This document shows positions 8,004 to 42,188 of a stretch of DNA of 64,000 bases, one piece after another. Each line of letters starts with the position of its first letter. The first letter of the stretch is position 1. The translations under genes and the position numbers were made by a program. The DNA is from Mesostigma viride (taxonomy: Eukaryota > Streptophyta > Mesostigmatophyceae > Mesostigmatales > Mesostigmataceae), in the NCBI GenBank assembly GCA_009746045.1, contig RPFO01000592.1, positions 23,807 through 87,806 of the forward strand. The letters run 5' to 3'. The notes beneath the pieces are model-generated. The model ran no database searches. It saw nothing but the letters and a program-made list of their open reading frames with translations, and was not told the DNA's origin.

Positions 8004-8029
8004 TTTTCTCTCTCGGCTTGTTTGTGTGG

Positions 8030-8150: not shown

Positions 8151-8166
8151 AGGAAGGTGTTTTTGC

Positions 8167-10290
8167 ATGACTTGTTTACTCTCAGCGACCATGGAAGAGT
8201 TGTATGTCATGAGATGGATGGGTATGGTGTGCACCGCGATCCTTTTTGGGTGCTTTGTGCATCTGGAAAGGGAGATGCCAGATATTGTCTCTGCAGGTGA
8301 GCGTCGCGGAAGTTTTGTTGTTGCCATGTGTTATATTGCGTAACGAAACGAGTTACTAGTTGTCCATCGTTTCATTCATTGTTTTACTTTGTGTTCCCAG
8401 GATGTTAGGGTACGATGCCTAGACGTGCAACATGTTAACGTTCTGCCGTGTTACTATGTGTGTCTTGTCTGTCTATCCAGGTTTGCTTATATCACCGATG
8501 CAGGTGGTGTACGTGGCGGGGGTTCTGCACGACCTGTTTTGGGGTAACATTTTGCTGATGTCGCAGAGTGATCTGACATTCTTATAAGGATTGTATGGTT
8601 GTGGGATGCGTGGTGTGGATATTGTGTGATTCATGTTATCAATTTTGTATATGCTTTTCCTGGCGATGATTGATTGTGTTTTAACAGTGTATTGCTGTTT
8701 TGGGTTGCCGTCCTCCATTGTGTATATGTTTTCCTTGACGATGATTGCTAGTGTTTGTTTGGTCTATTGCTGTTGCAGTGTTGGCAATGCAAGGGTGGAG
8801 GATCCCCTGCGTGGCTGTTCTGAGGTCGGGTCCGCAAGCACTGTGGCGGAGTGTGTCCGCATGGCTGGGCGGCACTGAGATTGTACAACAGCTTCTGTGG
8901 GGTAAGGTGTCGCTGCCATTGGAAAGGGTTCTTTTTTTGCGTGCATGTGCTTGGCATGGACTGTGGTTGCCATGGAAAAGATCGTGTACAACTTGACTTA
9001 CTTTTGTTTGTGCGTTGTCCCACGGTGCTTGGCCTTTTCTTGGGTCGCACATTTGCAGTCGCGGAGCTGCGAGGGTGGGGGGTCGCTGGAGGGGCTTGCT
9101 TGATGCTGGGGCCGTGGGTGCTCTGGCGGAGCGTGGCTGTGTGCATGGTGAACCTTCTGAACGACCTTCTGTGGGGTAAGGTGTCGCTGCCATCGGAAAG
9201 GGTTCTTATTTTGCGTGCATGTGCTTGGCATGGACTGTGGTTGACATGGAAAAACTTCACTTTGGAATGTGGTTACCATGGAAAAGGTTGTGTACACTTT
9301 GACTTACTTTTAGCATGGTCGTTGTCCCATGGTACTTTGATGTTCCTTTTGTTGATAATTTGCAGTTGCGGCGCTGCGAGGGTGGAGGTTTGCTGGAGGG
9401 GCTTGCCTGGCATTGGTGCCGTGGGCCCTTTATTGCAGCGTTTTTGCTGTTTGGCAGTCGTTGACACGTGCGGTGTTGCCGACTTGGATCGTGATGCTTC
9501 GAGTGGTTCTGTTAATCCTTCATTGGCCAGGTGGGCACGGTGTTTTGCAGTGTCACTTTGATTCAGCATTGAATTCTTTGATTCAGCATTTTTGCATTTG
9601 AATTCTTTTTCTGGTGGGGGAGTAGTGCTCGTGACCATGTTCATGATATGACTTTGTCATGATCGAATTATGATTATTGAATTATGCATTTGTTTGGTGT
9701 TTCTTGTGCTTTCGAGCCCTTGCAGAGCTTTTGGTGGAGCCACTTCCGGGAGGTTTCCTGCGCTTGTTGTGTGGTAAGTTGTTGCTCATCTTCATGTCCT
9801 TGCTCCCCCCCCCCCCAAAATATGACAAGCCACATGGGGTATCACAGGTGAACACAACACGCCACAGTGCCCTTTTGCGGGATTGCATGGCATGGCAGGG
9901 CATGTGCATGTGTACCACCCCTACCTGCCCGCCCTACGCCCCACTGCATGCGCCCTCCCAAAAGTCCCCTGCCCCATGCTATCTGTCCGCTGTGCCCCTA
10001 CTTATGGCTTCCCAGTCTGCACGACCTATGGCTCATAGCTTCAGAAAGGCTCCACTGCCCCCTGCCTTGTGCCCCCCTCTGTTGGGTACGTGTTATGCGT
10101 GTTTTATCGTGTGGGTAAACTGCAGGTGTTCTGCGGCGCGTGTGGAAGATTTTCCGATTTGTCTCTTCAATGGCAGCCACTCGTGAATTCCGCGACATTA
10201 GCTTTGCGGTTTTCATAGCGACGATGGTGATCGCGGCAGAAGTGTTCACTTTCGGCGCAGATGGCATCCTTTTGGCTCTTCGTAGGCCTG
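8167..10290 (+). CDS. Exons 1-7: hydrophobic N-terminal exons, several duplicated
   Basis: ATG 8167 opens a frame with one hydrophobic stretch ([11 protein letters not shown]) and ends in phase 1 at 8296 (GTGAGC). The six exons that follow all begin after one base of a codon and end after one base, so they are symmetric class 1-1 exons. Exons 3, 4 and 5 begin alike (AMQGWRI, AELRGWG, AALRGWR) and exons 2, 3 and 4 end alike (LHDLFW, VQQLLW, LNDLLW). Exons 5 and 7 end alike (LILHWPG, LALRRPG) at the same GTGGG donor. They are moderately hydrophobic and could be membrane segments. No known family is recognised. Upstream, the inverted repeat would supply the promoter. Confidence 0.5.
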
Positions 10291-13200
10291 GTGGGTGAAA
10301 GTGTGTTTTGAAATCACTTAAACATAATTTTGTGTCTCACTTAATAATTGTTGTATCTATATGGATGGATGGATGGATGGATGGATGGATGGATGGATGG
10401 ATGGATGGATGGATGGATGGATGGATGGATGGATGGATGGATGGATGGATGGATGGATGGATGGATGGATGGATGGATTGATGGATGGATGGATGGATGG
10501 ATGGATGGATGGATGGATGGATGGATGGATGGATGGATGGATGGATGGATGGATGGATGGATGGATGGATGGATGGATGGATGGATGGATGGATGGATGG
10601 ATGGATGGATGGATGGATGGATGGATGGATGGATGGATGGATGGGTACATTCATTCCTAGTGGTCTAAGCTATCTATGTGACATTACATCTCTTGTGGTT
10701 AGAGGTTGTCCATTACATTAGCTAGAATGTATTACAAGCCATATGCCCCTTGTCAGGGATATACGGTGATGTCATCCATGTTCATGTCCCTGCACATCTG
10801 TTCCCAACCAAAAAAAAGTGTGACAACCCGCATGAGGTATCACAGGGCAGCACAACACCCCACGGTGCCCTTTTGCGGGATCGCAGGGCATGGCAGGGCA
10901 TGTGCGTGTGTACCACCCCTACCTGCCTGCCCAACACCCCACTGCATGCGCCCTCCAAAAAGTCCCCTGCCCCATGCTACCTGCCCGCTGTGCCCCTGCT
11001 TATGGCTTCGCTCTGACCACACCACGTGCAGGTGGGTGAAGGCGATGCCTGCCCCATGTCCGAATCCGCTCGACAAGTGGCTCATAGCTTCAGAAAGGCT
11101 CTGCTGCCCGCTGCCTTGTGCCCCCCTCTGTGGATAAGAAAAGTTGGAATGATTCAAAGGACTGTGGTCTTGCGGTCAATGATGTGATTCTTATTTGCAC
11201 GATGCAGATCTTTATTTGGAACTGGGAGCAGCCATGGCGACTCTTGCATTGTACATCTTGCTTGGATTTCGGTAAGTGCCACTGGCTATATGACGAATGT
11301 GTAATGAATGAATCCAGGTCTGTTCTGAAGTAATCTTCTGAACTTATCGGTACAGCACCTCATATAACATTCTTCTTTTCTTTTAGTCGTCAGGTGCACA
11401 TGCTGCGTATTTTCCAATTTCGTGCTTGCACGTTCTCTGGGTTGTAAGTTCTGTTTGCTGATTATTTGTGTTGTGATATTTCTTTCGTGAATGATAGTCA
11501 CAGGGCTGGAATTTGTCGAGGGCGGGGGCGCGGTGGCCAAGCATGGAGGTCTCGGCGCTCAACGACGGTGTCTCGTTGTTGCCGCCCGCCAAGGCATTCG
11601 GGCGTTGTGCGGCGCTTTGTGTCACGACGTTACCTTGTTAAGTGGCGTCACCGTGCAAGGGTGCTGGATTGGGTAAGTGGACTGCCTTCCTTCTGCAAGC
11701 ATTTGGGATGATGATCGTCCAAGTGGGAACAAAGCTTCCATGCAAAGTAGGTAACCATGTGTTTCAAAGTTACATTAGTTTAAGGTGCACTGTGTTAGAT
11801 ACGGTGAGAAAAAGTGCGGATTCGTTGGTGTTCTTTGCATTCATAATTGAGTGTTGGTGCACTTGTCTTGGTTGTTTAACGCAGGCTCCTGTGCCGATTT
11901 TCGGTGCACGTGCAAGGCGAGGGCCTTGCTCTCGCGTACGTTGCATCATACGGCCGCGTCTGCCCCGATCGCAGCGCTCCGCGTGGCGTCCCACTCGGTA
12001 CCCGCGTGCTGGAACCTGGGAAGCTCGTTCCCTTGCACGCCAAGCATGTCGGCGTAGGATGCGTGCTGAAGCTGCTGTCGCATGCGCGCCCCCATCTTCT
12101 GCTGTACCCGCACGGGAGGAGGGATTTGTGTACGCGCGTGCTGCGTCGCGGCGAGCTCGTGTGTCTAGGCGGAGAGCACGTCAGGGAAGGCGTAAGGTGC
12201 AGAATTCAGCGGATGCGACGAGCTCACCTCCGTGTTCGTCAATACCCGTGTGTACAGTCGCATGTGATGATGACGCCGGCCACGACGGTGACTGGGAGAT
12301 ATCTATGTCGGGGGAGGACGACATGTGTGACGAGGTATGCGCTGCTGGACTGTTTTTTGATGGTACTGGTGTCATCCCGGACGTGTTTGTCTGCCTCAGT
12401 TGCGAGTTTTTGTGCAAGTGGTAATGCTGACCATGCATGGTGTTCTTTATTGTGGCCATGCACAGGGAAACTTCTCTGATGTGGGCGAACGTCTCGAGGA
12501 GACGGGCAAATGGGACGAGGACTATTATGTACGTTATTGCATGTGTGCTTCCTGAATTGCGTGTTCAGCACATGTGGTGGGTACGCAGTTGATGTACCAC
12601 CATGTGTACTTGGGTGCATCTGGTCATACATGATGGGCAGAGTTTAGTAACAATCATCTTTACTTAACATTTGTATGTTATGTTCGGCTCCTGTCCAACG
12701 AACGGGTGTGTGTACGTGCTATCTTCATTGCTGTGCAGGCCGCGCCCTCACACAGCGTGTCTATACACCGACGCCGGCGCGCAAGGAGGAAGGTGAAGGA
12801 GAGTGACAAATTGGTGGGTATATAAAGTGTGAGATTAATGTTAGCTTTCTTTACAAGTTTAGGGCGTTGATATTTGAAATTGTACACGTTGCGTAATAAA
12901 TTTCATGCAATTTTGCTGTGACAAAGTTTGTCTGACCTTCTTAACCACAATGCCTTTGTACCATCCCCAGGGAGCACGTGGATTTCAGACACAAGCTTCA
13001 GGGGCATCTCCATCGCCGTGTGTTGCAACAAGTTCAGCTCAAGGGTTCTTTCCAACCACAGCATGTTCCCTGGCGCCAACAGATGTCACAGCATCTTCAA
13101 TTGTACTTCCAGCCGCTGCAGTATCTTCCCCTCTCTCCCCATCTGACATAGTACCTTCTTCTCCTTTACAGGCTTCCGCCGCATGTTACCCCGTACCGCC

Positions 13201-16200
13201 ACCTAGCACAGTATGCGTGGGGGGGGGGCCACCGTCTGGAATGCCTTGTGCTTTGGACCCACCTTCTCGGGCGAACGCTTGTGTGGAAGAAGCGGAGTCC
13301 ATGGCAGTGGAGACCGCACAAGGAGAGATGAACGTTCAGGCACCGCAGACAACAAGCGTTCCAGCTCTAGCAGGAGCACATGCAGCTGGCGCTCAAAAAG
13401 TTGTAAGCTATTTGTTTTTCTTTGTTATTCATGCATGGTTTAAGTTGTTTATTTTGATCATTTTTTAGCAAATAGCAGCATGATTTCATGCAAAGCGCTC
13501 ATGCATGCCTTTGAGGAACTTGAATCGCATATACGATTTTTGTTGTTATTGTACTGTTTTCATGTCATGACTAATGTGCAGGTGGACGTTAGTGGGTTTA
13601 AAACCGCGTCGGACTTTGCAGACGCTGCTTTCACTGCTTCAGCGAATGTCTGGGAACGGATGCAGCGAATTTCATATCTGATCAAAGCGTTGGACGAGGA
13701 GGGTCGTAACTTTTCTGACAAGAGTGTCCATGCTGCGGTAAGTAACCATTTCGGTGTATGGCTTTCATGTTGTTGTGGCATGTTTTTTACGGCAAAATGG
13801 AGCAGCTAGAAGTTACATAGAGAATGATAATAATGTTTGGCTTTAATGTTTGGCTTTAATGTTTGGCTTTAATTTTTTTGGGTGGGTTCACTTTCCTGTG
13901 TGCAGAAGAAAAGGATGAAGAATGCACTGAACAACTGCAACCGGACATGGTCAAATTTGCCTGAGGTGCAAAAGCTTCGATTACAGTCTGCGAGTGGTGG
14001 ATTGGCTGTCAAAGGGTCGTTGCATGCTCGTGAAGGACCAGCGGCAGAGGCGTCGCAAGGGGGGATCCCTGCGCGTGCGAGTCCAGCAACGGTAGCGGCG
14101 GTGGAAGGGGGTCTGCCTGCGTGTGCGCGTCTTGTGACAGCGGCGCCGCAAGGGGGGCTGCCTGCAAGTGCGGATTCAGCGGCGGCAGCGGAGGAGCGAG
14201 CAGGCAGAAAGCGGTGGCAGTTTACCAAGCTTCCATTCGGAGGCAAGGGAGAAGAAGCCGATGGCTTTCAGGAACAGGATGTATCACAAGGGCTTGGCCT
14301 TGATGCAGGCGGGAATGACCGCCAATCCATCTACAGAGTGGCAGAGTCCAATCAGACTGCCTGTGGTCCAGATGTTGGTGCGCCAAATGTTGTTGGGATG
14401 GAGGTTAGTCGCCTAAGTCTTTCTAGTGTTTGTATTGTTCTTGTATTTAGCATTCTTTACTGTGTTTGCATGTTGGATGATGTGCACTTGACTGTTGGAC
14501 ATTTGGTTTCATGTAAGTATCTTATTTTATCTGTAATGTATATGATTGGATGCAGGAGGTGAATACAGAGACTTTCAAAACGGCCGCCGACTTCGTCACG
14601 TTTGCCAAAAGCTTCTCTCGCCGCTGGGCTATGTCAGCGGAAGACAAGATTGCGCGTTTGCAGTCGCTGTTGCAGGAACTGCGTCACTGGAAATTGCATG
14701 AAAACGATCCGCAAAAAATCTTCGAACGACAAATGGCGGTAAGTTATTGTGATGAGGAGTTGCTTTGCGATGGGATTGTCCAATGTGCCATGGCGCTCTT
14801 CTTTTCTTACATGCTCATTTTGGATGCATCTGCTCTGCTTTACCACTCATTTACTGCATTGTTGATCCGAATGAAATCATGTTTTCTTTGTGGGATTGTA
14901 AGATTGCAGGTTAAGGCTTTGCAGGACATGGTGAGCCGTCGAGAGAGGAGGTGCGCATCAGCGTCTACACGACAAGACGGTGATGCTGAGGTTTGTTCAT
15001 ATTTGTTAACCACGAGCTTTAATTTTGGTTTTCCTGTTTTGGGGGGAGGGAGGATGCCAGAGTTTCTGTAATTTCATTTGATTAATCTTTGGTTAATGCA
15101 TTGCGCGTTTGTGCAGGATGTTGCGTGCGAACCTGGTGCAATATTGGCCTACAAGCGAGCTGCGAAGGCCTTTTGCTGTAACGAGGTGCACTCGGTCAAG
15201 GACCAGATCGAGTACTTGCAAGAATTGGTCGGCGAGGTTCGACGGCGGGATGATTTCAGTGATGAGCAACGCCGCACTCTTGTGAGTTTTTTTTATCTAT
15301 CTTGTGTTGAGTTGTAAATTTCCTTTTTTCTTTGGCATTGTCATGATTGCTACTGTTCTACATTAATTCCATATTTCTGGCCTGCATCGGTTGTCTCCTT
15401 GATATATTTTGGATTGATTGTGATGCCACTGCAGGGGAAAACGCTGTTGGACATGATTAATGAGAGGGTGCAACCTGCGGCTCCTGGGATCAACCCACCA
15501 TCAATAGTAAGGGCAGATGTTGTTGTTTGTTGGTTGTGAAATGGTTTCTGGTGTGTGCCAGTCGTCATGTTGGAGTCATCTTTTACATTGCATGTCATGC
15601 GGTCATGTCGCTATACTGGTGTTCGCTTTGTACGTGTCTGTGGTTGACACTTCGTGTGTGACAAGTGTTAGTCGCTGTGGGCTAAGGTTCTCTCCACCTC
15701 GGTGTGTTGTTTATCTTGCGACATGTGCAGGATCCTGGTAGTGATCAAGGGCAGGGTGATGAGGGCGCGAGTGACGCGGCTACTCGTGTCATCCAAAAGC
15801 TGGACGCGGATCGGAAATGGCATCGTGATAATTATGCCCGTAAGAAAAGGGAGATGGCCACGGGGAGGACTAAGGATGTGCGTGGCAAGAAGCATGCGCG
15901 GACGGACGGGAACGATGCTGATGACAGCGACGGAGGATGTGATGAGATGGATGCAACGATGGAGGACGACGATGGTGGTGGCCTCGAGGGTGGTGATGGG
16001 GAGTCCATCGATCCGCTCGAGGGAGGCAGCCCGGGGAGTGATGGGGAGAAATCTGGTGATGATGTGTCACCACCAGTCAAGGAGACGGATCGGCAGAGAA
16101 TCACGAGGGTGAGTTTATCTGACACTGCGCTCGCAGCTAACCATGTGCACGTGATGTCATAAGCCAGCTAGTAGACGTATCACGGGTACACACGCAGGCA

Positions 16201-19200
16201 GGAAGGCACGTAGGCTGGCAGGCAGGTAAGCCAGTTTGGCAAGCATTTTGGCAAGGGCGATATATCTTTTGTGTCAAGCTAGGCATGCAGGGCTGCATGG
16301 GCAGGAAGGAAGGCACGGTGCAAGGGGCATGGCGTAATCCAACTTTGCGGTGCTTTCCTCTGTGTATATCCCAACTGAGATGACAAATAATTTTTCTGAC
16401 GCTGTGTTGGTTTGTGATGTTGTATCTTGAAAAAGGTTACTTCAAGAAGGATGTTGTGGAACGGTGCTGTAGCGCAGGTTATTGCGTGATAGTACCATTG
16501 ATCGAAGTGTTCGGTGTGTTCAAATTGTTGGAATATTTTTAACAGGTGAACGATGAGGTCAAAAAGTTCGGAACGACGCTTGCCGAGGTGCGGCGATTGT
16601 CGCGCTGTATGGACACGGGCGATTACACAGGATTTGAGGTGCGGCCGTTCAAGTTGCAGCCGCTGACCAATGACCCGAATGCTGCACATCCGTACTCGCT
16701 AGACGAACACCGTGAGCTAAGCAAGTGCCCCAAGTGCCATGCGCCCATGTTCAAGGAGGAGCACCCCAAGCAAAGTCGTTGCTGTTCCAAGGGCAAGGTC
16801 AAGGTGTTGCAGCCCAACCTTAACCTCATCATCGAGAAGCGCAGGAGGCGCGAGCGACTGCTGGCGGCGCCGAACCCGGACGAGCGCGCCATTGCGCAAA
16901 ATAACCTGAGTGAGCAGGAGGAGATGTTGTGGCAGATCCACTGCAACCCGACAAACGTGGCCCTGTGGATCAGGTACAGTGTTGGAATGATGGTGGGAAC
17001 CAAGCATGCTTGTGTGTTGTACTCGATGTCAGTGGTGCAGAAGTTATGCTGAAATTTTCTTTACCACTCTTAGTAATGGTGCGACAGCTATGGCAAAATT
17101 TTCTTCTCCGCCCTTATGGCACGGGAGCTATGCTAAAATTTTCTTCACCGCCCTTACTTATGGCGCGGGAGCTATGTTAAATTTTTCTTCACTGCAGTTA
17201 AGGGGAGGGAGTTATGACAACATTTTTTTTCCCACCCTTGCTTCTACTGCGGGAGCTAATGCCAAAATTTTCTTCGCTACCCTTATGGCGCGTGAGCTAT
17301 GCCAAAATTTTCCGCACTGCCCTTGTTGCACGTGAGCTATGCCAAAATGTTCTGCACCACCCTTATGGCGCGGAAGCTATGCCAAAATTTTCTGCAGCAC
17401 CCTTGTGGCGCGTGAGCTATGCCAAAACTTTCTTCACTGCCCTTGTGGCGCGGGAGCTATGCTATAATTTTCTGCACCACCCTTGTGGCGCGGAAGCTAT
17501 GCCAAAATTTTCTGCACCGTGCTTATCTTGCGGGAGCTATGCTAACATTTTCTGCACCACCCTTGTGGCTGGGAAGCTATGATGAAATGTTGTGTATCAC
17601 CCCTATGGTGCTATGACAACATTTTTTTTCCCACCCTTACTTCTACTGCGGGAGCTAATGCCAAAATTTTCTTCGCTACCCTTATGGCGCGTGAGCTATG
17701 CCAAAATTTTCCGCACTGCCCTTGTTGCACGTGAGCTATGCCAAAATTTTCTGCAGCACCCTTGTGGCGCGTGAGCTATGCCAAAATTTTCTGCACTGCC
17801 CTTGTGGCGCGGGAGCTATGCCAAAATTTTCTGCACCCCCCTTATGGCGCGCGAGCTATGCCAAAACTTTCTTCACTGCCCTTGTGGCGCGGGAGCTATG
17901 CCAAAATTTTCTGCACCACCCTTATGGCGTGGGAGCTATGCCAAAATTTTCTGCACCACCCTTGTGGCGCGGGAGCTATGCCAAAACTTTCTTCACTGCC
18001 CTTGTGGCGCGGGAGCTATGCCAAAACTTTCTTCTCCGCCCTTGTTGCACGTGAGCAATGCCAAAACTTTCTTCACTGCCCTTGTGGCGCGGGAGCTAGC
18101 CTAAAATTTTGTGCACCACCCTTGGGGCGCGTGAGCAATGCCAAAATTTTCTGTACCTATGGAGCTATTTGCCATAGCTCCCAAATTTTCTGCACCGCCG
18201 TTATTGCGCGGAAGCTATGCCAAAATTTTCTGCACGACCCTTGTGGCGCGTGAGCTATGGCAAAATTTTCTTCGCTACCCTTATGGCGCGTGAGCTATGC
18301 CAAAATTTTCCGCACTGCCCTTGTTGCACGTGAGCTATGCCAAAATGTTCTGCACCACCCTTATGGCGCGGAAGCTATGCCAAAATTTTCTGCAGCACCC
18401 TTGTGGCGCGTGAGCTATGCCAAAACTTTCTTCACTGCCCTTGTGGCGCGGGAGCTATGCTATAATACGTGAGTATTCCTTTGCCACTCTTCGGAAGCGC
18501 AAGCTGTGCTTGGATTTTTACCTTACTTCTACTGCGGGAGCTAATGCCAAAATTTTCTTCGCTACCCTTATGGCGCGTGAGCTATGCCAAAATTTTCCGC
18601 ACTGCCCTTGTTGCACGTGAGCTATGCCAAAATTTTCTGCAGCACCCTTGTGGCGCGTGAGCTATGCCAAAATTTTCTGCACTGCCCTTGTGGCGCGGGA
18701 GCTATGCCAAAATTTTCTGCACCCCCCTTATAGCGCGCGAGCTATGCCAAAACTTTCTTCACTGCCCTTGTGGTGCGGGAGCTATGCCAAAATTTTCTGC
18801 ACTGCCCTTATGGCGTGGGAGCTATGCCAAAATTTTCTGCACCACCCTTGGGGCGCGGGAGCAATGCCAAAACTTTCTTCACTGCCCTTGTGGCGCGGGA
18901 GCTATGCCAAAACTTTCTTCTCCGCCCTTGTGGCGCGGGAGCTATGCCAAAATTTTCTGCACTGCCCTTGTTGCACGTGAGCAATGCCAAAACTTTCTTC
19001 ACTGCCCTTGTGGCGCGGGAGCTAGCCTAAAATTTTGTGCACCACCCTTGGGGCGCGTGAGCAATGCCAAAATTTTCTGTACCTCCCTTGTGGCGCGGGA
19101 GCAATGCCAAAACTTTCTTCACCGCACTGCCCTTGTTGCACGTGAGCTATGCCAAAATGTTCTGCACCACCCTTATGGCGCGGAAGCTATGCCAAAATTT

Positions 19201-28200: not shown

Positions 28201-31200
28201 ACCCCACACACCCACGCACGCATGCCAGCGCCCCCCTAAACCCACACATGCATGGCAGCTCCCCACCGCACCCACGAATGCATGGCAGCCCCCCCCCACC
28301 AGCCACCCCCCTAAACCCACGCATGCATGCCAGCCCCCCTTCACACTCAGGCACGCATGCCATCCCGGCCCGCCCCACATGCATGCATAGCAGCTCCCCC
28401 CCACGCCCACGCATTTATGCCAGCCACCCCACAAATCCACGTATGCATGCCAGCCACCCCACAAACCAACCCACGCATACCAGCCACCGCCACACCCACG
28501 CACGCATGCCAGCCCTCCCATAAATCCACACACACACGCATGCCAGCCACGCTACAAACCCACTTCTGCATGCTAGCCACCACCCACACCCACGCATGCA
28601 TGCCAGCCACCCCACGAACCCAAGCACGCATGCCAGCGCCCCCTAAACCCACACATGCATGGCAGCTCCCCACCACACCCACAAATGCATGCCAGCCCCC
28701 CTTCACACCATTCCCATACACAAATAATGTGCACACACACTCATCACCATTACCATGAACTCGCCAATGAGCAGCTGATAGTTCATCGATAGGAACGATG
28801 GAGCCATTTCAAGATCTTGGCTGAACACTCCATTTCCCGCCTCCGTCGCCTGCTTTGTTTCGTGCGTTGTTCGGTGTGCGTGCAGCTCGCCTACGCGGTA
28901 ACCATCAACAAGTGCCAGGGGCAGACGTTGGAACGCGTCGGCTTGTGGCTGCTGCGCGACGTGTTCGCGCACGGGCAGCTGTACACGGCGCTCACGCGCG
29001 TGGGCGCCAAGGAGCGCATCCGGGGGCTCTTTGCCTACGAGTTCGACGGCGTCGGCTACAGCAGGAACGTCGTCAACTGGACAATCCTGCGGGGCGCGGG
29101 CATCGACCTGCGGGACCGGGTGGAGGACCCCGTCAAGGCGCGCATTCGCAACCGCGACCGCGTGCGGCGCCGGACGCAAGCTTCGGACGACTGGGAGCTG
29201 TTGGACCCGATGGACGGAGACCCTTTGGACAACAGCTATGACAACCCCAACGACGAGCAGGTGTGGGAGCTCGGGGACGACGAGGAGAACTCGTACGCGG
29301 ATCGGCACTGGGGCGAAGACGAGATGGAGAGGCGGTGGAGGCAGGTGGTGGACCAGCCTTTGTGGGCGGACTACGTGCTGGGGAGCGACGACGACGACCC
29401 GTATCGCGACATCGTGCGGGTGGACGGCTTGTCGTCCGACGACGATGACCGCGACGCCGCGATTCGCATGTACGATGGCGACGACGATGTGGACTACGAC
29501 GGCTTGCCATATATCGGCGACTCTGACGCTACGGTGTGTGACGTCGCTTCATGTTGCGCTGTGGACCGATCTTGGTTTCGACGTCGGGTCCGTATTCTGT
29601 GTTGACACGCCTATGCACGTGCGTGGGCATGTGTGTGTGCGTTCGCTGTCATGCTCATGACGTGCACGTGTTGGCACATGTCCACGCGGTTCGCTGTTGA
29701 TGCGCAGGACATGGACGAGGATGCTATCCCGACGTACGACGCCGACTATGACTCGGCATCGTGTGGGGACGACCGCTCGTCGGGCCAGGTACGCGTTCAT
29801 GGCTCGGTTCCCGTTCGCGCGTGGTTGGCGGGATGGCGGCTGTGTCCGATGGCTCGTGTTCTGACGAGTGGTCGCGTGTTGTGTCCCCCTCGGTCGCAGG
29901 ATGACTACGGCGACGATGATAGGCTGATCGACCCGCACGCCGCCGCCGACGACTTTCCCTATTTCTACAGCGTAAGTCCCCGCTTTTTTTATCGTGTGCG
30001 TTAGTCCTTCCGTCGTTAGTTGGGAACGTGTTTGTACCCTTTTTTTTTGGCGAGCCATCCGATGTTAACCAGCAGGTCTAGGGGTCGATCTTCGATTGTT
30101 CCGCTGACTTTGCTTGCTCGGCTGTTGCGTGATGATGATATCGCAGGACGGGGATAGGTCATCCGAATCCTACATCGACGAGTTTGGGAACCACGGGTGC
30201 GAGAAGGCCAAGGGCTTTGTGAGGTCGGGCCCCGACTTTGGGCAAGCGACGTTTGACTACAACGTGGCTCAGGAATTCACCAAGGAAGATCTGGTTGCGG
30301 AGGCGGTGAGTGCTCGCCCTTTGCAAAGGTGCGACGGGTTGCATTGCGAACCGATGCCGTTGTGCCCTGCAGGCCGTTTAATTCGATCGCTCATCCCTAG
30401 TTGTTGCTTTGCTCGTGGCGTTTGCTCCCTCTTCCGCAGCGCGAGGCGGTGTTTTCTTCAGATGAGGTCATCGAGGGGGATGACGAGGGAGACAACGAGG
30501 GTGGTGTGGAAGGCGGGAGCGACAAGGCTGCGGGCGCGGGGGATGGTGATGCGTCTCCTCGCGACGCGAGAGACCTCGGCAGAGTGGGTGAGGGACGTGG
30601 GGTGGAGGGGGGAAGTGCCACATCGGTCGACGCTGGCGGAATCGATGCGGCGGACGGTGATAGGAGCGTGGCAGGGGCTGCGGGTGTCGCTGAACCGGGT
30701 GAGACTGTCCCGTTGCAGGGGGAAATGGGTGTGTCGCACGAGCAGGGTGCTGCGGTGGATGGAGCCCGGGATGTGACGTCAACGGTCGATGATGGCGTGG
30801 ACGCGCACGAGCCGGCCGTGGCTGCTGCGACGAATGAACCAAGACATACGGACGTGGACTGTGCGGCGACCTGCGCGCGCGAGGGGACGGCGGCGGGTAA
30901 TGTACCGGAACTCGATGGTATCCTTGCGCAGGTGCGCGGGGTGCTCGCCGCGTCACGAGCCCTGCTGGTGCGACTGCGGCATGTCGCGGTCGGCGCGTCG
31001 ACCCGCCACGATCCCGTGGAGACGCTGTACGCCAAGCTGTGCGCGTCCCGCGCGCGCGGCGAACTCGGCGGGCAAGACCGCCTGCGCTTCGAGGGGGGGA
31101 GGGACGGTCTGGCCGGATTCGGGCCGACCGCGCTTGCGTACGCCGAGTTCGCGGTGGTGCTGCTCCTTTGGTCTCGCGTTCACGTCGGTGCGTCGCTGCC

Positions 31201-34200
31201 GATCGTGAGCGACGAGTGTGAGCAGCTGCGCGCCGTGTTGGAACGGGACGGCGACGTCGCGGATGTGGTTCGACGGCTGTTTGCGCACGCGAACTCGTGC
31301 GCGTTGGTGGAGCGCGCGCCGTGCTGCGGCTATGAGGAGTGCCTGGCTACCGCGTCCGAGAGCGAGCTGGACTTGGTCGACCTCGGCGTCGGCCAGGGGA
31401 TGCTGGCTGAACAAATGGCGGCGCTGCTGAGGCGCGGACCGGCGCCAGGGGCGTGCGTGGGTTGCCGTGAGGCCGTCCCTCACTGTGTTCGCTACTCGCG
31501 CGTCGGTCTCCCGGCGAGTGTCGTGTTCCACGTGCGGGGCGGGGCGGACGTGCGCGAGTGCGGGGGAGGGCATCTGCCCGCGCGCTTCGATGCCAAAGTC
31601 CTCGACGTGACGCGTGGAGAAGAGGTCGCCGCGGTCGCGCGTCTGCGCGGCTTTGTCGAGGCCAGGGGTGTTAACCGACTCGTTTTCTGCCGCGCCGTCG
31701 ACGCCGAGTCCGGTCAGTTCCAAGTCCTCGACGCGATCACGGGCGACGTCTCGCTCGAGACGCTGCGGCTGGATGCTTTGGAGCGCCCCGTGCTGGCGTG
31801 CGTCTATGACGTCAAGGCGCCTGCGGACACGGGGTCGACGTGTGAACACGAGGCGCCTGCGGCGGTCAGCCCTCCCCGTGCGTCAGCTGAAGGGACGCGA
31901 CGGAAGAGTGCCACGAAGTGGCGCCCACTGCGTGCGGAGCGGCGCGAGCGCCTGCCCGACCCTGCGGCTGGTCATTGCTCGGCGCACGGGTGCGGCGCTT
32001 GCGCTCAGTTTGACGCGCTCATGGCGTCGCACGGCCACATCAGGCTGCGCGCCGACCGCACGCGCACGTTTTCGTGGTACGAGAACAGCTGCCACCTGGA
32101 CGCGGTCCTCGAGTTCGTGTGGCAGGTGCTGCTGCTGCTGCAGACGCCGGCGAGGTCGGGTTTGCAATTCTTGATGTGCCGCGTGCCGGGCGAACCGCAC
32201 GATTGGCGCTGCGATCTCGGGTTAGCGCTGCTGCGCTGCGTGCTGGCGGCCGCGGAAGGGCAAGGCCGAGAAATGGACGCGCGGCGCGACGCGGTGCTGC
32301 GCGTGCTCGACAAGCACTTGCCCGCGCGAGTGGCCGCGGACCCGGACGACGCGTTCGACAACATGCGCACGCTCATGGAGCACGTGGCGGCGGGCGGCCC
32401 GCGGTGCAGCGAGCGCTCGTGCCAGCCTCAGGTCAGGTCGGACGGCGGCCCGCTCGAGCTGCCGCTCTTGGTCATCGACTGTGATGAACGATGGGACATT
32501 GCGACACGCCTCGCGTCGGTGTGCCGACAGCACGCGCCTGACGTTCCCGTGCCGTGCGCTTTGTGCCACCAAAGGGAGTGCGTCTCGGGGCGGCACTGTG
32601 ACGAGGTGCCGCGCGTGCTGCTCTTCGGTCGCTTGAACCAGCTGCCGCAGAGCGCGTATCGCGGGGCCGGCCTGCCGGAGACGATGGAGCTGACTCTCTC
32701 GATCGGGCCGACGCGGCGGCAGGTTCGCGTCACCGCCCGGCTGTTCGCCGTGGTCGAGCTAATGGGCGGCCATTGCGTGCTGCTGCGGCGTCCGCAGGCG
32801 GGCGGGAGGTGGGAGGTGGTGGACGGCATTGCCAACGTGGAGGGTGTGTCCCACCGCGACCGCGTCGACATGGCGCGGCTCGCGAGGGTCACGGACGCGT
32901 GTTGTTATGTTGTGGAACAGTGTGCCGCCGAGCGAAATGTCGGCGAGCTGCATGGCGACGATGGGCATGAGGCGCACGCGAGCGCGCAGGCGGCTGCGTG
33001 CCCGCCGGATGCCGAGTCTGCCGTCGTGCGCGAGTGCTTTGAGAACTTTATGCAGCTTCAGGACGCGTGCGAGGGGCTCGCGCTGCTACCTCGAGCAGAT
33101 GTGGCATCCAGGGGACCGTTGTCGGCCCCGTTCGAGCTGTTGTACACGCAGCTGTGCGAATGGCAGGCGCAGAGCGGCGCGCGGGACTTGCGTTGTCTTA
33201 CGTTCGAGACGGTCGGGCAGGTGGGCGGAGTGGGCGACGCGGGCGCGCGGGTCGCGTTGGCGCTGCTGACGGCCGTGTGGCAGCGCGCGCAGGGCTCGCA
33301 GCGGGACGTGGACGCGGCAACGACGATCTGGAGCGTTCGGTGGCGAGGCTCGAGCGGCGGGGCGGACAAGAGCCGCTGCAGTTTCACTTGGGACTGATGT
33401 TGTCCCATTTGGAGACCCCGGGGTTGGTGGAGCGTGGCCCTTGGTGCTGCAAGTGCGACGAGGAGGTCGGCGCGATCGCCGAAAATCCGGTTCCCTTGGT
33501 CGAGGTGTCGTGCTTGGGCCGGGCACGCTCGCCTACTTCCTGGCGAGGGAGATGAAGAAGGCCACCATTTATTGCAAGTGCTCGGCCTGCGGTTTTCGCA
33601 TGTCCACGATGTTCCGAGAGCTGCGCGGCGGCTTGCCCGCGTTTGTTGTGTTCTACGTCAATAAGCGTGAGACGGTGAGGGAGGGGTGCGAGGTCGCCTC
33701 GGACCGCTTCGCAGCCCAGGTGGCGGTGGACGATGGCTCGGTCGTCGATGTGGACATGCGGCTGCGCGGCTTTATCGAGCGCTCTCCTGGCGGCGCGACG
33801 ACGTTCTGGCGCCGCGGGGATGAGGCGAACGACGTTTGGTGGGGGCACGACGGTGCGAGGCGGACGCGGCACAAGTGTGAGCAGGGATCGGCGGGCGAGC
33901 CGGGTGGGGAGATGGCGTGCGTGTACGAGGTGGCGCCCGCCGCTGAGGACCACTGTGACGCGGTCGCAGGTGAACCCTCGTCCGTGGGAGCCGAGCAGGG
34001 GGCCGTGCCGGGAGTGCCGGTCGACGCCAGTGGGTCGCACAAGCGCGTCCCGGTCCTTGCTGAGGTACGAGGGGGGACCGTGCCGGGAGGGGAGGCATGT
34101 CCCATCGATTTGTCGGACGGTTTCGGCGACGACGGGGCGGGCCCTGCAGCCGTTCGCGCGCAGGAGGCGGACACCCCCTTTGTGCGGCAGGCCTCGTTGG

Positions 34201-36380
34201 ACTTTCTGCGACTGCGGGAAAAGTGCGAGGGCCTCGTGCTACAGCGGCGCAACGACGTGATGTTCAAAGGGCCGCATGGCGCGCTCTTGGAACTGTTCTA
34301 CGTGTTGCTGTGCGAATGGCAGGCGCAGCGGGGCGTGCAACCGTTACGGCGGCTGACATTTGCTAGCAGGAATGCGCGCGCTTCCTCCTGCGTTGGCGCC
34401 GAAGCGGCCGCGCGGTTTTCGTTGGCCTTGCTGACGTGCGTGTGGCAGCGTGCGCGGGGCGCGCAGGGGGACGTGGACAGGGCGATGGCCGACTTGGAGC
34501 GCGCGGTGGCGGAATCGCGTCCCGCGGCGTCCCTCGAGTCCGTGTTATGCCGCTTGCTCTCACACGTGGACATGCCGCGCTTGTCCGAGCGCGTCGCGTG
34601 CTGCCTGCTTTGCGGGAAGCCACACGGTGCCGCCCCGCTCGAGGAGAGTACGGTGGATGTGGTTAAGGTGCCAGCGACGTTCGGCCACCTGTCCACACTT
34701 TTGGCGATGGCGATGAAGCAGAGCCTCTTCGAGAGCGCGTGTCCCAGTTGCAACTCCGCAGCGGCGGGGCGCAAGCGCGTGCTACGCGGGGGGACGCCGG
34801 CGTGGCTGCTCTTCCACGCGGACGAGGGCGGGTGGGTGGGCGGCGCGCCGCCGGACCGTTTCCCCGTTATGGTCTCCATCGACGGCGAACAGGACACCGA
34901 CGTCCCCGCCAACGCTCGCCTGCGCGCGTTTGTGCGCCGCGAGCCCGGCGACCGCTTGGCGGTCTGGCGGCGCGACGCTGACACCCCGGACACATGGTGG
35001 GTCACCGACGGCTCAGGCCCGGCGCGCCGGCGGCGCGATCAGGAACTGTCCAACGCACCGGCCGCAGAGATGGTCTTCATGTACGAGGTGGCGCCCGCGG
35101 GCGGTGCCGTCCACGCCGCGACCGAGGCACGACGCCACGCGATTCCCACGAGCGATGTTTCGCGAGGATCCGTGGAGGGACGCACGGTGCCTGACGTGAC
35201 GTCGCATCCCGCGCCCACGACGCCTGCGCGGTCGGCGGTCCGGGGTCCCAGCACGCCTGCCCGGGTGGGGGTGCAGGACAAACGCGCGCAAGTGAGGAAA
35301 CGCGCTGGGACGTCCGCGGCAGAGGCCGTGGTTGTGGGGGACGAGGAGGAGCATGAAGAGGAGGAGGAGTTGCTGCCGCAGCACCGCGCGTTCGAGTTCA
35401 CGCCACGGCCGAGGCCATCGAACGCCACCACATCCTTCTGTCTCGCGTTCCTGCGCTTGATCGAGCAGTACGGCCACAGGATGCTGCCCGTGCTCCTCAT
35501 GAACCTGCCCGTGTGGAATGCGAACAGCTGCTGGGTGGACGCCATCCTGATGCTGCTGGTGCACGCCATGATATGGGGGCAGCGGCCGGGGGAGTCCGGT
35601 CTGCTCAGGCTGCAGTGCAATCACAACGACGGCAGACACGGTCCACGCTGCGAGGACGGCCTCGCGTTGCTGGAGTTTGTTCTGGCGTTTGCGTTCGGCA
35701 CGATGCAGGAGGCGGCCGACAAGCGTAACAAGGTGATGCGGCTGCTAGGTGCGAGCCAAGGTACGCTTTACGGGGCGCAGGGCCACGGGAACATATGCCT
35801 CACGAACGTCATGGGGCACCTCAAGGACGCGTATCTCCGTCAGGGCGACTGGGCGTGCAAGCGACCGTTCCCCGTGGACGGCGTGTTGCAGCGACCCATA
35901 GGTGCCGGCATCGCGCCCGACGGTATGGACTTTGAGGACCGCATCGTGCAGGTATGCCGCGAGTACGCAGGGGAGCTGTGGCAACCATGTCGTTGCCTTT
36001 CGCCGACGTGCGTACCTTGGAGGTACTTTGACATGGTTCCGAGGGTCCTGGTGGTCGTTGGCTTCTTAACTGGTGTCGAGTCGCGAGACTACGCCGGCCG
36101 CGGGCCGCCCATGAGGTTCGGCATGGCCATCCGCGTGGGTCGCGAGTGCGAGGAGGTTCGCGTGACCGCGGAGCTGTGCGGCATCGTGGAGAGGCAACCC
36201 CAGCACTTCGCGTACCTGCGACCCATGGACCTGGACCAGGGGCGATGGGAGGAGGTGGACCCCTATGGCGCGTTGACACGACATATCAACACGGCATACC
36301 CGCGCCCCGGGCGCGTCGACCTGGCCGAGCTTGCGCACAGGACGCTCGCGTGCCTGTACCGCGTGACGCCGGTTCCCTGA
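8167..36380 (+). CDS. Giant Helitron protein: hydrophobic exons, Rep (HUH), PIF1-type helicase, USP-like protease array
   Basis: Thirty-three exons inferred from GT-AG borders with continuous phase: 8167-8296, 8481-8543, 8779-8901, 9059-9175, 9366-9530, 9726-9773, 10126-10290, 11208-11271, 11387-11443, 11504-11672, 11885-12334, 12466-12528, 12739-12813, 12971-13402, 13582-13737, 13906-14403, 14556-14738, 14910-14990, 15117-15281, 15435-15506, 15731-16108, 16546-16973, 21515-21742, 21887-22084, 22321-23752, 23956-24252, 24409-24456, 25143-26918, 28886-29533, 29708-29788, 29900-29971, 30147-30305, 30440-36380. The sum is about 14,960 nt. Exons 22-29 are a clear Helitron Rep/helicase, which would cut and join DNA as a rolling-circle transposase in the nucleus. 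The last exon adds USP-like domains and has two 1-base frame breaks. Joining exons 1-21 to the Rep rests only on phase continuity; two adjacent genes remain possible. Confidence 0.65.
9784..10095 (+). repeat. Intronic duplicate, copy 1 (pairs with 10770-11135)
   Basis: A stretch rich in CCCTGCCCCATGCTA and CACTGCATGCGCCCTCC, lying in the intron before exon 7. It matches 10770-11135 in the next intron nearly throughout. Copy 2 has an extra stretch of about 45 bp (near 11020-11070). The pair shows that exon 7 and its flank arose in a locally duplicating region. No coding role seen. Confidence 0.75.
10361..10642 (+). repeat. (ATGG)n tetranucleotide tract
   Basis: About 280 bp of uninterrupted ATGG/GATG repeat except for one GATT variant near 10478. 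It lies in the intron between exon 7 and exon 8. It gives open frames on both strands (Met-Asp-Gly-Trp or Ser-Ile-His-Pro repeats) that I do not treat as genes. Confidence 0.98.
10770..11135 (+). repeat. Intronic duplicate, copy 2
   Basis: Second copy of the segment at 9784-10095; see there. The ends match GGTATCACAG and CCTTGTGCCCCCCTCTG in both copies. Confidence 0.75.
11208..12813 (+). CDS. Exons 8-13: hydrophobic segment then Arg-rich region
   Basis: Exon 8 (11208-11271) adds a hydrophobic run ([14 protein letters not shown]) and leaves in phase 2. Exons 9 (11387-11443) and 10 (11504-11672) continue in phase and become strongly basic ([13 protein letters not shown]). Exon 11 (11885-12334) is an Arg/Ala-rich stretch of 150 residues ending acidic ([11 protein letters not shown]). 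Exons 12 (12466-12528) and 13 (12739-12813) are short, one acidic and one basic ([10 protein letters not shown]). The basic runs could bind nucleic acid or act as nuclear signals; this is inference from composition only. All borders are GT-AG and phases match. Confidence 0.5.
12971..13402 (+). CDS. Exon 14: Pro/Ser/Ala/Thr-rich low-complexity linker
   Basis: 144 residues with few charges (for example [15 protein letters not shown]), bordered by CCCCAG and GTAAGC, phase 0 on both sides. It contains a G9 run near 13220. The composition suggests a flexible, disordered linker between the basic region and the coiled-coil exons. No family recognised. Confidence 0.5.
13582..13737 (+). CDS. Exon 15: first of three related coiled-coil-like exons
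   Basis: 52 residues; core [12 protein letters not shown], then an amphipathic stretch ([15 protein letters not shown]). It is similar to exon 17 ([14 protein letters not shown], then [14 protein letters not shown]) and more weakly to exon 19 ([10 protein letters not shown], then [14 protein letters not shown]). A decayed partial copy lies at 8030-8150. The function is unknown; helical packing or oligomerisation is a guess. Confidence 0.6.
13906..14403 (+). CDS. Exon 16: linker with four 15-16 residue repeats
   Basis: 166 residues. Near the middle are tandem repeats starting [23 protein letters not shown] and GGLPASAD, each followed by an Ala-rich half. The rest is polar. Borders are TGTGCAG at the start and GAG/GTTAGT at the end. 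The DNA shows the matching 45-48 bp repeat. No family recognised. Confidence 0.55.
14556..15506 (+). CDS. Exons 17-20: coiled-coil-like exons
   Basis: Exon 17 (14556-14738) and exon 19 (15117-15281) repeat the theme of exon 15, with Leu-rich amphipathic helices. Exon 18 (14910-14990) has a basic run (SRRERR). Exon 20 (15435-15506) is a 24-residue exon. All four enter and leave in phase 0, so the duplicated exons can be gained or lost without breaking the frame. Confidence 0.6.
15731..16108 (+). CDS. Exon 21: basic then strongly acidic linker
   Basis: 126 residues; a helical basic part ([17 protein letters not shown]) is followed by an Asp/Glu/Gly-rich stretch. It joins in phase 0 to the Helitron zinc-finger exon. 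Helitron proteins commonly have a variable region ahead of the zinc finger, so this exon plausibly belongs to the same protein. Confidence 0.65.
16546..16973 (+). CDS. Exon 22: Helitron N-terminal zinc finger
   Basis: The exon encodes CPKC, then MFKEEH, then RCCSKGKV. This is the spacing and context of the conserved finger before the Helitron Rep domain (Cys-x2-Cys, then a Cys-Cys with GKV), which probably helps to recognise element ends or DNA. Upstream is a further 60 residues starting VNDEVKKFG; downstream is a helical basic part ([10 protein letters not shown]). It exits in phase 2 at AG/GTACAG into the 4.5 kb minisatellite intron. Confidence 0.85.
17055..21440 (+). repeat. 40-bp minisatellite filling intron 22
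   Basis: About 4.4 kb, near 105 copies of a 40-bp repeat of the form CTATGCCAAAATTTTCTGCA plus CCACCCTTGTGGCGCGGGAG. Blocks of repeats are themselves duplicated. At 18472, 19280, 20678 and 21358 the array is broken by related inserts carrying GTGAGTAT and GCGCAAGCTGTGC. The intron is 16974-21514. Frames are open because the repeat has few stops and changes register every 40 bp; none is a gene. Confidence 0.95.
21515..22084 (+). CDS. Exons 23-24: region between zinc finger and Rep
   Basis: Exon 23 (21515-21742) begins [14 protein letters not shown], matching the Helitron segment where an IR-x-YN-x-FAF type motif precedes a G-x-Y/V-x-L-H-GQ strand (here [14 protein letters not shown]), followed by YFLLNDPEQ. 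Exon 24 (21887-22084) reads [18 protein letters not shown], the usual L-x-N-P motif, and ends in APEIFLMP. Phase 2 joins on both sides. This stretch links finger and nuclease in all Helitron Reps. Confidence 0.85.
22321..23752 (+). CDS. Exon 25: Helitron HUH rolling-circle Rep nuclease
   Basis: Cuts and rejoins DNA during rolling-circle transposition. Visible motifs: [17 protein letters not shown] with [34 protein letters not shown] with the HUH histidines at codons 23150 and 23156; and the two-tyrosine motif [10 protein letters not shown] with Tyr codons at 23660 and 23672. Spacing agrees with Helitron_like_N Reps, and all catalytic residues are present. An acidic/Ser insertion (near 23410-23440) is specific to this copy. 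It ends in phase 0 at CGG/GTGAGT. Confidence 0.97.
23956..24456 (+). CDS. Exons 26-27: Rep-to-helicase linker
   Basis: Exon 26 (23956-24252) begins [14 protein letters not shown] and includes [13 protein letters not shown], which is the conserved Helitron stretch after the Rep (a Trp motif, then L-x-V/I-HL). Exon 27 (24409-24456) is a 16-residue basic exon. Both are phase 0 and separated by an ordinary intron of 156 bp. The next intron carries the array minisatellite. Confidence 0.85.
24528..25066 (+). repeat. Array-type minisatellite module inside intron 27
   Basis: Starts after a poly-T at CCCCCCCGACACACGGATGG and ends ATGAAGTCATAGTGGGCACT plus ACGGAGTCATGC. Both borders also occur inside or at the edge of the array units (near 503 and at 2426-2457 in unit A), so this is a piece of array unit, including its right edge, within an intron of the giant gene. 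It suggests that the module moved, or was copied by recombination, between the block and its surroundings. Confidence 0.9.
25143..26918 (+). CDS. Exon 28: PIF1-type helicase, main part
   Basis: Superfamily 1 helicase that unwinds DNA 5' to 3' behind the Rep nick. The first 150 residues match the Helitron pre-helicase region ([45 protein letters not shown]). Motif I is GPAGTGKT (25857-25880); Ia region [16 protein letters not shown]; motif II VVDEVGM with Asp 26097 and Glu 26100; motif [17 protein letters not shown]. Later motifs include [12 protein letters not shown] and the [14 protein letters not shown] segment. It ends in phase 0 at AAG/GTGCGT and continues at 28886. No break within the exon. 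Confidence 0.97.
27060..28700 (+). repeat. Array-type minisatellite inside intron 28
   Basis: About 1.6 kb of the same CACCCACGCACGCATGCCAG repeat family as in the outside array, in a 1967-bp intron (26919-28885) that splits the helicase. Unlike the module at 24528 it lacks the ATGAAGTCATAG edge, and its repeats are more diverged from the array consensus, so it is probably an older or independent acquisition. The open frames here are not genes. Confidence 0.93.
28886..29533 (+). CDS. Exon 29: PIF1-type helicase C-terminus and acidic tail
   Basis: Completes the helicase: [19 protein letters not shown] (motif V) and [13 protein letters not shown] (motif VI), with the arginine needed for ATP hydrolysis. 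It then reads [13 protein letters not shown] and becomes strongly acidic (DDDDPYRD, then [10 protein letters not shown]). Ordinary Helitron proteins end soon after motif VI; this one keeps an open frame that splices on in phase 0. Confidence 0.93.
29708..30305 (+). CDS. Exons 30-32: acidic linker
   Basis: Three short phase-0 exons: 29708-29788 ([13 protein letters not shown]), 29900-29971 ([12 protein letters not shown]) and 30147-30305 ([14 protein letters not shown]). All have clean GT-AG borders (GTACGC, GTAAGT, GTGAGT donors). The Asp-rich composition matches the end of exon 29, supporting one continuous protein from helicase to protease array. Confidence 0.7.
30440..36380 (+). CDS. Exon 33: acidic lead plus five USP-like domains, with two frame breaks
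   Basis: A 5.9 kb exon starting CGCGAGGCGGTG after TTCCGCAG. About 170 residues of Asp/Glu/Gly-rich linker come first. Then follow domain 1 (about 30930-31840, degenerate), domain 2 (about 31960-32930, Cys and His boxes present), domain 3 (about 33010-33950, degenerate, carries both frame breaks), domain 4 (about 34180-35100, degenerate) and domain 5 (about 35390-36370, Cys and His boxes present). The frame is open from 30401 to 33397 and again from 33441 to 36380, with a middle piece in the third frame. Whether the tail is cleaved off or acts in cis is unknown. Confidence 0.7.
30930..31840 (+). CDS. USP-like domain 1 (degenerate)
   Basis: The order resembles the second half of a ubiquitin-specific protease: Cys pairs (CCGYEEC, then CVGCRE) where USPs bind zinc, then [12 protein letters not shown] (the strand usually L-P-x-V-L-x-x-H), then [20 protein letters not shown] where an active USP has a GHY-type His box. 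His is absent (GVNRLVF), and no Cys box is obvious at the start. It aligns with domains 3 and 4 along its length (ETLYAKLCA compared with ELLYTQLCE and ELFYVLLCE). Inferred to be a non-catalytic USP fold. Confidence 0.55.
31960..32930 (+). CDS. USP-like domain 2 with Cys and His boxes
   Basis: Opens with a Cys cluster (CSAHGCGAC), then the Cys box [13 protein letters not shown] with the nucleophile candidate Cys at codon 32090. Later come [15 protein letters not shown] (zinc-type Cys/His), [14 protein letters not shown], and the His box region [17 protein letters not shown] with His at 32771, then GRWEVVDG with Asp at 32822, closing with ACCYVVEQC. This is the USP order (NxCxLDxxLQ ... AVVxHxGGHY ... 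WxxxDD ... AYxLxY). Family C19 peptidases remove ubiquitin. Activity here is inferred, not shown. Confidence 0.7.
33010..33950 (+). pseudogene. USP-like domain 3 (degenerate, two frameshifts)
   Basis: Starts [18 protein letters not shown], close to domain 4 ([13 protein letters not shown]). After VDA near 33321 similarity to domain 4 continues only in the next frame ([10 protein letters not shown] compared with [21 protein letters not shown]), and near 33510 it moves again ([25 protein letters not shown]). Each step fits loss of one base. Without correction the protein stops at 33395. The last part ([13 protein letters not shown], then [20 protein letters not shown]) lacks the catalytic His. 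Either the gene is decaying here or the bases were missed in assembly. Confidence 0.65.
34180..35100 (+). CDS. USP-like domain 4 (degenerate)
   Basis: The most complete of the three degenerate copies: [38 protein letters not shown], then [10 protein letters not shown] (zinc-type pairs), [13 protein letters not shown], and [18 protein letters not shown] with Asp where an active USP has His, then TWWVTDGSG and MVFMYEVAP, which matches the usual A-Y-x-L-x-Y end. Followed by a Pro/Ala linker and an acidic run ([11 protein letters not shown]-type, near 35340). Confidence 0.6.
35390..36380 (+). CDS. USP-like domain 5 with Cys and His boxes, C-terminus
   Basis: Cys box [14 protein letters not shown] with Cys at codon 35529, the classic N-S-C-W-x-D arrangement. 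Later [19 protein letters not shown], then [18 protein letters not shown] with His at 36204, [10 protein letters not shown] with Asp at 36258, and [11 protein letters not shown] before TGA. It parallels domain 2 in order and spacing but is clearly diverged. A GTGAGT eight bases after the stop (36389) may be a 3'-UTR donor. Confidence 0.7.
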
Positions 36381-42172: not shown

Positions 42173-42188
42173 TTTTTCTTACGTGTTA

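Follow-up and report, generated by a model that had tools for sequence, protein, structure and literature searches.

The 64,000-nucleotide stretch of DNA analysed here (the window) comes from Mesostigma viride, a single-celled green alga that branches early among the streptophytes. It probably carries a Helitron-like (RepHel) transposon of about 34.6 kb, whose main gene encodes one very long polypeptide that includes an array of domains predicted to have the USP fold. We base the single-gene reading on a spliced frame that stays open, on the same order of parts in two diverged copies, on N-terminal exons shared among gene models, on a gene model (P0003) that joins linker and tail, and on the predicted fold of the tail. 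These lines of evidence uphold part of the preliminary description, which had proposed one giant Helitron gene; a break in the reading frame inside the third tail domain counts against it.

Rep and helicase lie in a long exon chain

We traced a chain of 28 exons, separated by 27 GT-AG introns, from an ATG at 8191 (in frame with 8167) to a stop after 33394. The spliced frame comprises 3,761 amino acids and has no internal stop. The exons upstream of the tail are the following.

8191-8296, 9059-9175, 9366-9530, 10126-10290, + strand: N-terminal exons 1-4 (matches to P0006 and P0068/P0070)
11208-11271, 11498-11672, 11885-12334, 12466-12528, 12739-12813, + strand: N-terminal exons 5-9 (gene-model matches)
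12971-13402, 13582-13737, 13906-14100, 14556-14738, 15117-15281, 15435-15506, + strand: N-terminal exons 10-15 (gene-model matches; the end position of exon 12, 13906-14100, is uncertain)
15731-16108, 16546-16973, 21515-21742, 21887-22084, + strand: pre-Rep exons 16-19 (matches to P0006, P0040, P0068 and P0004)
22321-23752, 23956-24252, + strand: Rep exons (PF14214, HUH and two-Tyr motifs, dN/dS)
24409-24456, 25143-26918, 28886-29533, + strand: PIF1-type helicase exons (PF05970, Pif1_2B; spliced frame open)
29708-29788, 29900-29971, 30147-30305, + strand: acidic linker exons (exact matches to P0006, GT-AG borders)

The pre-Rep exons encode a CPKCHAPMF...CCSKGK region, which we take to be zinc-finger-like. 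The Rep matched the Pfam profile Helitron_like_N (PF14214, E 2.5e-23) and the helicase matched PIF1 (PF05970, E 1.5e-36) and Pif1_2B (1e-8). In the spliced frame, the Rep motifs PHAH (at 23147) and YLNKYINK (at 23660) are intact, as are the helicase motifs GPAGTGKT (at 25857), GDFRQ (at 26205), TINKCQGQT (at 28901) and YTALTR (at 28982), which confirms the Rep and helicase recognized earlier. An HUH/two-Tyr Rep is joined here to a PIF1-type helicase, the combination that defines the Helitron superfamily (RepHel). In the assembly of the window (439.9 Mb, 2243 contigs), Helitron_like_N had 55 matches at E<=0.001, 53 of them above cut-off. A search of viral contigs with the helicase exon gave no match.

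The frame runs on past the helicase, as the preliminary description had proposed: helicase motifs V-VI share exon 28886-29533 with the first acidic stretch, and this exon leads through the three acidic exons into the tail across four introns, each 111-175 nt long, in the interval 29534-30439. The earlier chain had 33 exons with phases in agreement up to 36380; the frame is open as far as 33394, but with 28 exons, and domain 3 lies in three frames. The earlier length of about 5,000 codons was close, since 955 codons (33513-36377) and about 64 in a piece in a further frame (f0) add to the 3,761.

Some introns are rich in repeats. A 40-bp minisatellite lies in intron 16974-21514, and the helicase introns 24457-25142 and 26919-28885 are filled with 30-bp minisatellites of a family that also occurs in the flanking units.

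Gene models and copies argue for a single gene

All gene models cited are predictions, probably made on the same assembly. A link between these models and PMC7027972 was rejected, as the 9,300 gene models given there are too few for the number implied by the name Mv15055. The model P0006 (Mesvir1/22814) has 20 exact-match stretches between 8275 and 33394. Exons 2 and 4 and part of exon 1 are matched exactly. Missing from the model are exons 3, 5, 6, 12 and 13, the larger part of exon 7, the Rep exons and almost the whole helicase; our guess is that repeat masking caused the omission of the Rep and helicase. Four further models (P0040, P0068, P0069 and P0070) jointly match 14 of the 15 N-terminal exons, with exons 1-4 matched by P0068/P0070 and exon 9 by P0006 only. 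Their matches are in order, except for a second match near 8.8 kb, and the models extend into the pre-Rep region. P0004, whose Rep and helicase show 44% identity, carries before its own Rep a short stretch that matches the exon 11 region (E 8.7e-5 against P0069). Hydropathy revealed hydrophobic segments in models related to the N-terminal exons. On the other side of the helicase, a linker of similar type (YDNPNDE) opens P0003, which continues into tail domains, and P0001 (EukProt, Mesvir1/29684) is 99% identical to the tail of the window. None of the gene models matched joins helicase and tail, or N-terminus, Rep, helicase and tail. All three tail matches and 6 of 73 RepHel matches bear the Mesvir name (about 8000 scored candidates per search). 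P0001 and P0040 have near-neighbour gene numbers (Mesvir1/29684 and 29682), and P0040 is only about 60% identical to the N-terminus of the window.

We compared the window with 4 of the 55 Rep places in the assembly: two near copies (contigs C1324 and C3), about 99% alike over the tail, and two diverged copies (C1 and C1513). Both diverged copies keep the parts collinear on a single strand, within a span of about 12 kb: Rep (83% DNA identity), helicase (84-85%), linker exon (77-79%), then tail (70-78%). By alignment, the counterpart of the helicase intron in these copies is shorter than 200 nt.

Rep and helicase are strongly constrained. Against the near copies, we counted 42 silent and 6 replacement changes in one comparison and 37.5 and 6.5 in the other (dN/dS 0.04 and 0.05), counts that are small and non-independent because both comparisons include the window. 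Against C1 and C1513, dN/dS was 0.26-0.28 for Rep and helicase. By contrast, we saw no purifying selection on N-terminal exons 1-15 against the two near copies, with dN/dS of 0.90 and 1.06, and no stop occurred in 848 and 745 codons. The N-terminus therefore seems to be translated and fast-evolving; from the sequence, this evolution is perhaps diversifying.

One alternative is that three adjacent genes, an N-terminal gene, an ordinary RepHel and a USP-like gene, are joined only by predicted splicing. Such a division would fit the contrast between an N-terminal dN/dS of about 1 and 0.04 for the RepHel, the lack of any single model that holds the full span, and the gap in P0006 where Rep and nearly all of the helicase should be. 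However, the four short introns between 29534 and 30439 leave little room for separate genes, exon 28886-29533 unites helicase motifs and acidic stretch, and the order is repeated in C1 and C1513 with the short helicase intron. We consider separate genes unlikely and retain the single gene.

The tail is an array of USP-like domains

The tail contains five domains.

30902..31786, + strand: tail domain 1, USP-related, catalytic Cys/His absent (H at 31007, R at 31676)
31958..32926, + strand: tail domain 2, active-type USP-like (Cys 32090, His 32771, Asp 32822)
33032..33940, + strand: tail domain 3, Cys-less USP-related; the frame shifts near 33319 and again near 33505, with a stop in frame f1 at 33395
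34203..35144, + strand: tail domain 4, Cys-less USP-related (GPH, His codon at 34275)
35412..36377, + strand: tail domain 5, active-type USP-like (Cys 35529, His 36204, Asp 36258)

On the + strand, 30440-36377 contains an open stretch of up to 1,036 aa; in 200 first-order Markov simulations the longest open stretch had a median of 259 and never exceeded 488. Cys, His and Asp are invariant in all four active-type domains (domains 2 and 5 and two paralogue domains), which share 32-37% identity, and the catalytic set is absent from domains 1, 3 and 4. Alignment of A1 with A2 (hhalign 98.2%, E 6.1e-14) is the basis for the Cys-less domains 1 and 4. The active-type domains also have an invariant Asp at +3 after the Cys, which we take to be a likeness to USPL1.

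Sequence profiles did not recognize these domains. The Pfam profile UCH (PF00443) had no match in any of the four active-type domains at E<=10, the tail ORFs had no useful match in Pfam, and a search of PDB sequences with the domain profile returned one chance match (E 1). We also obtained no hit at E<=0.01 among the 8000 scored candidates of a protein search with domain alignment A1, and no confirmed match of domain 5 in viral contigs. AlphaFold models of a two-domain segment and of domain 5, each built from 4 sequences, had low confidence (pLDDT 45 and 58; for domain 5, pLDDT 57.5 and pTM 0.65). With these models as queries, the best 37 rows (two-domain model) and the best 23 rows (domain 5) in Foldseek were USP-type enzymes, with TM-scores of at most 0.45 on USP rows, and the best 50 rows in VIA-align were USPs or USP-containing complexes. 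The models thus support a USP fold for the tail domains. Fold and Cys/His/Asp order resemble the USP family (C19)/USPL1, in contrast to the missing Pfam UCH match. Five USP-like domains, to be checked against USP profiles, had been proposed at the outset; all five are present, and while the profile check failed at the level of sequence, it is overturned solely by the low-confidence structure models.

Two shared frameshifts interrupt domain 3

Domain 3 is spread over three frames: it starts in f1, changes to f0 at about 33319 and to f2 at about 33510. The break lies inside domain 3, and therefore the last two domains are out of frame with the gene in the window. The 311 bases at 33250-33560 are identical and gap-free in C1324 and C3, and the pieces of domain 3 lie in a single frame in C1 and C1513. 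Because the near copies share the two frameshifts and the diverged copies lack them, we regard these as a derived trait of the subfamily to which the window belongs. Past the shifts, the window and C3 both keep an open frame as far as 36377 (1,036 aa); C1324 has an additional break after the shifts, with 425 and 670 aa open.

Selection acts on both sides of the break. Against the near copies, the tail before the break had 16 silent and 18 replacement changes in one comparison and 13 and 16 in the other (dN/dS 0.40 and 0.44), and the tail after the break had 26 and 11, and 18 and 8 (0.14 and 0.15); domains 4-5 gave 0.15-0.16. These counts are likewise small and non-independent. When the same test was run in the two wrong frames, dN/dS was 2.3-4.4 in the tail past the break and 2.8-6.6 in the Rep exon. 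Against C1 and C1513, dN/dS was 0.45 before the break and 0.65 after it, where unlike domains may have been compared. The constraint after the shifts suggests that this part probably continues to be produced, perhaps as a protein of its own.

These results bear on two explanations that would strip the break of biological meaning. If the tail were a pseudogene and the element dead, two frameshifts across domain 3 and one more break in the last part of C1324 would be expected, but not a dN/dS of 0.14-0.15 past the shifts against two copies that carry the same shifts, nor intact Rep and helicase motifs. An assembly error might be suspected from the spacing of the shifts (about 190 bases), the GC-rich DNA and the fact that every sequence compared may derive from one assembly; however, three contigs whose neighbouring sequence differs by about 1% carry exactly the same shifts, and two diverged copies in the same assembly read through in one frame. 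Given the shared shifts and the post-shift constraint, we consider a dead element very unlikely and an assembly error highly improbable.

Alternatively, a short intron or a programmed frameshift may cross domain 3 and yield one protein to 36377. Constraint on either side of the break and the identity of 33250-33560 in three copies are compatible with this, and a stop-free GT-AG intron can be placed across the break in 90 ways; with so many possible introns, phase agreement across domain 3 proves nothing. An intron would, however, remove stretches that are kept as coding in the diverged copies, and the gene model P0001 begins anew at 33552. This explanation is possible but doubtful, and we favour a tail divided between two products.

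Known Helitrons differ in their tails and termini

Among about 8000 scored candidates there were 73 RepHel matches, of which precomputed Pfam annotation assigned a UCH/USP domain to one (P0012), a VTD to one (P0007) and an OTU to one (P0076). We confirmed the C-terminal USP domain of P0012 (1.2e-12). The preliminary description had known of no Helitron with a USP-like multi-domain tail; P0012 shows that a Helitron with a C-terminal USP was already known, but it has one domain and no array, and the multi-domain array in an alga is a variant. Like the main gene here, P0012 (metagenomic, 1,884 aa) has Rep, PIF1 helicase and then USP; it differs in that its single USP is recognized by Pfam, its Rep starts near residue 342, and its RepHel lies elsewhere in the tree. 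A tail profile did not align with its USP domain. No Helitron with a USP tail is mentioned in the titles and abstract openings searched, which included few subscription papers, nor where PMC9741609 and PMC7928374 deal with USPs.

We built a quick tree from the window and 37 of the 73 RepHel matches; it joined the window and P0004 to two insect and two fungal RepHels (SH-aLRT 100), with long branches and the inner order open. This group was apart from the land plants and from P0012, and one insect RepHel near the window, P0007, carries PF04843. Judging from the sequences, USP tails were probably gained separately.

RepHel proteins exceed 1,500 and sometimes 2,000 residues, according to passages of PMC6431247. 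Animal Helentrons carry VTD or OTU deubiquitinases, and zebrafish VTDs are active on ubiquitin (parts of PMC9741609 and PMC4067079). Helentrons therefore share with the window a RepHel with a ubiquitin-removing enzyme, but VTD and OTU are other protease classes. Helentrons also carry an AP endonuclease at their C-terminus; here, Pfam scans of 28793-29602, 30401-33394 and 33270-36377 detected no endonuclease family at E<=1. Canonical Helitrons are described in PMC10741241, as far as its passages go, as having neither inverted repeats nor target duplication; unlike Helitron1, the element here has subterminal inverted repeats of about 190 bp, and its 30-bp border repeat may or may not be a target duplication. 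Helitron2 of Chlamydomonas, Selaginella and others is similar in its RepHel, green-lineage hosts and asymmetric inverted repeats, and its non-autonomous members are reported to have duplications of 7-19 bp (passages of PMC3627910). However, Helitron2 is defined by short asymmetric terminal inverted repeats and hairpins at both ends, with repeats of 8-15 bp at fixed places, whereas the inverted repeats here are longer and further in; those passages do not mention a USP tail or a long N-terminus. Plant Helitrons with RPA share the RepHel, and the insert here likewise contains a second constrained gene; its RPA match is below threshold, and the sampled land-plant RepHels form a separate group.

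A possible role for the tail

We propose, tentatively and with rather less than even confidence, a distinct lineage of giant rolling-circle transposons whose replicase protects itself by deubiquitination through a tandem array in which inactive USP domains are paired with active ones; in one subfamily, frameshifts would have split the array to give a second protein that selection still maintains. The polypeptide would consist of a fast-evolving N-terminus, Rep, helicase, acidic linker and USP-fold array. From family knowledge and the intact motifs, the Rep would nick and join DNA through its HUH motif and two tyrosines, and the helicase would unwind the strand for rolling-circle copying. The active-type tail domains may remove ubiquitin or a similar tag, probably from the RepHel itself or from bound replication or repair proteins, and the Cys-less domains may bind or scaffold. 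In the subfamily of the window, the two frameshifts would split the array: translation of the first product would stop in domain 3, while domains 4-5 most likely form a second protein or are reached by a splice or frameshift.

On RepHels in other parts of the tree, USP would be a third class of deubiquitinase beside the OTU and VTD of animal Helitrons (parts of PMC9741609 and PMC4067079), present as a multi-domain array under purifying selection in a streptophyte alga and as a single domain in P0012. If the tail is active, the repeated separate gain of ubiquitin-removing enzymes would suggest that rolling-circle transposons in general need such an activity, perhaps for protection of the RepHel against the proteasome.

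Borders of the insert and a second gene

The main gene lies in a likely insert with the following features.

7616..7645: left 30-bp direct repeat, exact copy of 42239-42268
7646..42238: likely insert; the insert-free site is seen in neighbouring repeat units
7809..7998, + strand: left subterminal inverted repeat, 77-82% identical to 42178-41941 on the opposite strand
38924..42107, - strand: opposite-strand gene, ORFs 38924-41329 and 41529-42107, constrained
41941..42178, - strand: right subterminal inverted repeat, overlapping the start of the opposite-strand ORF
42239..42268: right 30-bp direct repeat, exact copy of 7616-7645

The insert would span 34,593 bp between the two 30-bp repeats, and insert-free sites occur in flanking units, for example at 46153-46248, 50114-50209, 55000-55098 and 58960-59055. 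Left and right subterminal inverted repeats match with E 1.8e-36 for the main piece, and repeats of this kind (about 190 bp) are present in the window and in both near copies. Between the 30-bp repeats the ends read CCCAC...AGTAC rather than the TC...CTRR of Helitron1, and the position of the true ends is unsure.

Exact 30-bp copies at both junctions, together with the insert-free sites in several units, would suit a target site duplication, and non-autonomous Helitron2 elements of Chlamydomonas have duplications of 7-19 bp (passages of PMC3627910). However, neither near copy is a clean, separate insertion. The right border of the window recurs in C3, which continues into the same flank in one 93.9% alignment; the left border recurs in C1324, which has about 66 extra unit bases at its right border. 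These border sequences weaken a clean 30-bp duplication, and as the window, C3 and C1324 do not look like independent insertions, we are unsure of it. Segmental duplications have been reported for the M. viride genome (part of PMC6947507). On balance we lean towards the 30-bp repeat being part of a shared flank, because copies spread with pieces of the surrounding array.

Both flanks (42239-64000 and 1-7645) are an array of units of about 4 kb with a CACCCACGCATGCATGCCAGCC-type minisatellite, and flank-unit sequence also adjoins the copies in C1324 and C3.

Against C3, dN/dS in the opposite-strand gene was 0.04 at 40130-41329 (7 silent changes, 1 replacement) and 0.21 for ORF 41529-42107. Its product may, as a guess from the sequence, be RPA-like; the match to Rep_fac-A_C (E 0.031, 14.5 bits) is below the cut-off of 28.5 and does not establish an RPA identity. 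About ten copies of a 185-bp tandem repeat lie at 36823-38720, between the two convergent genes, and related repeats sit between coding stretches inside the copies in C1 and C1513.
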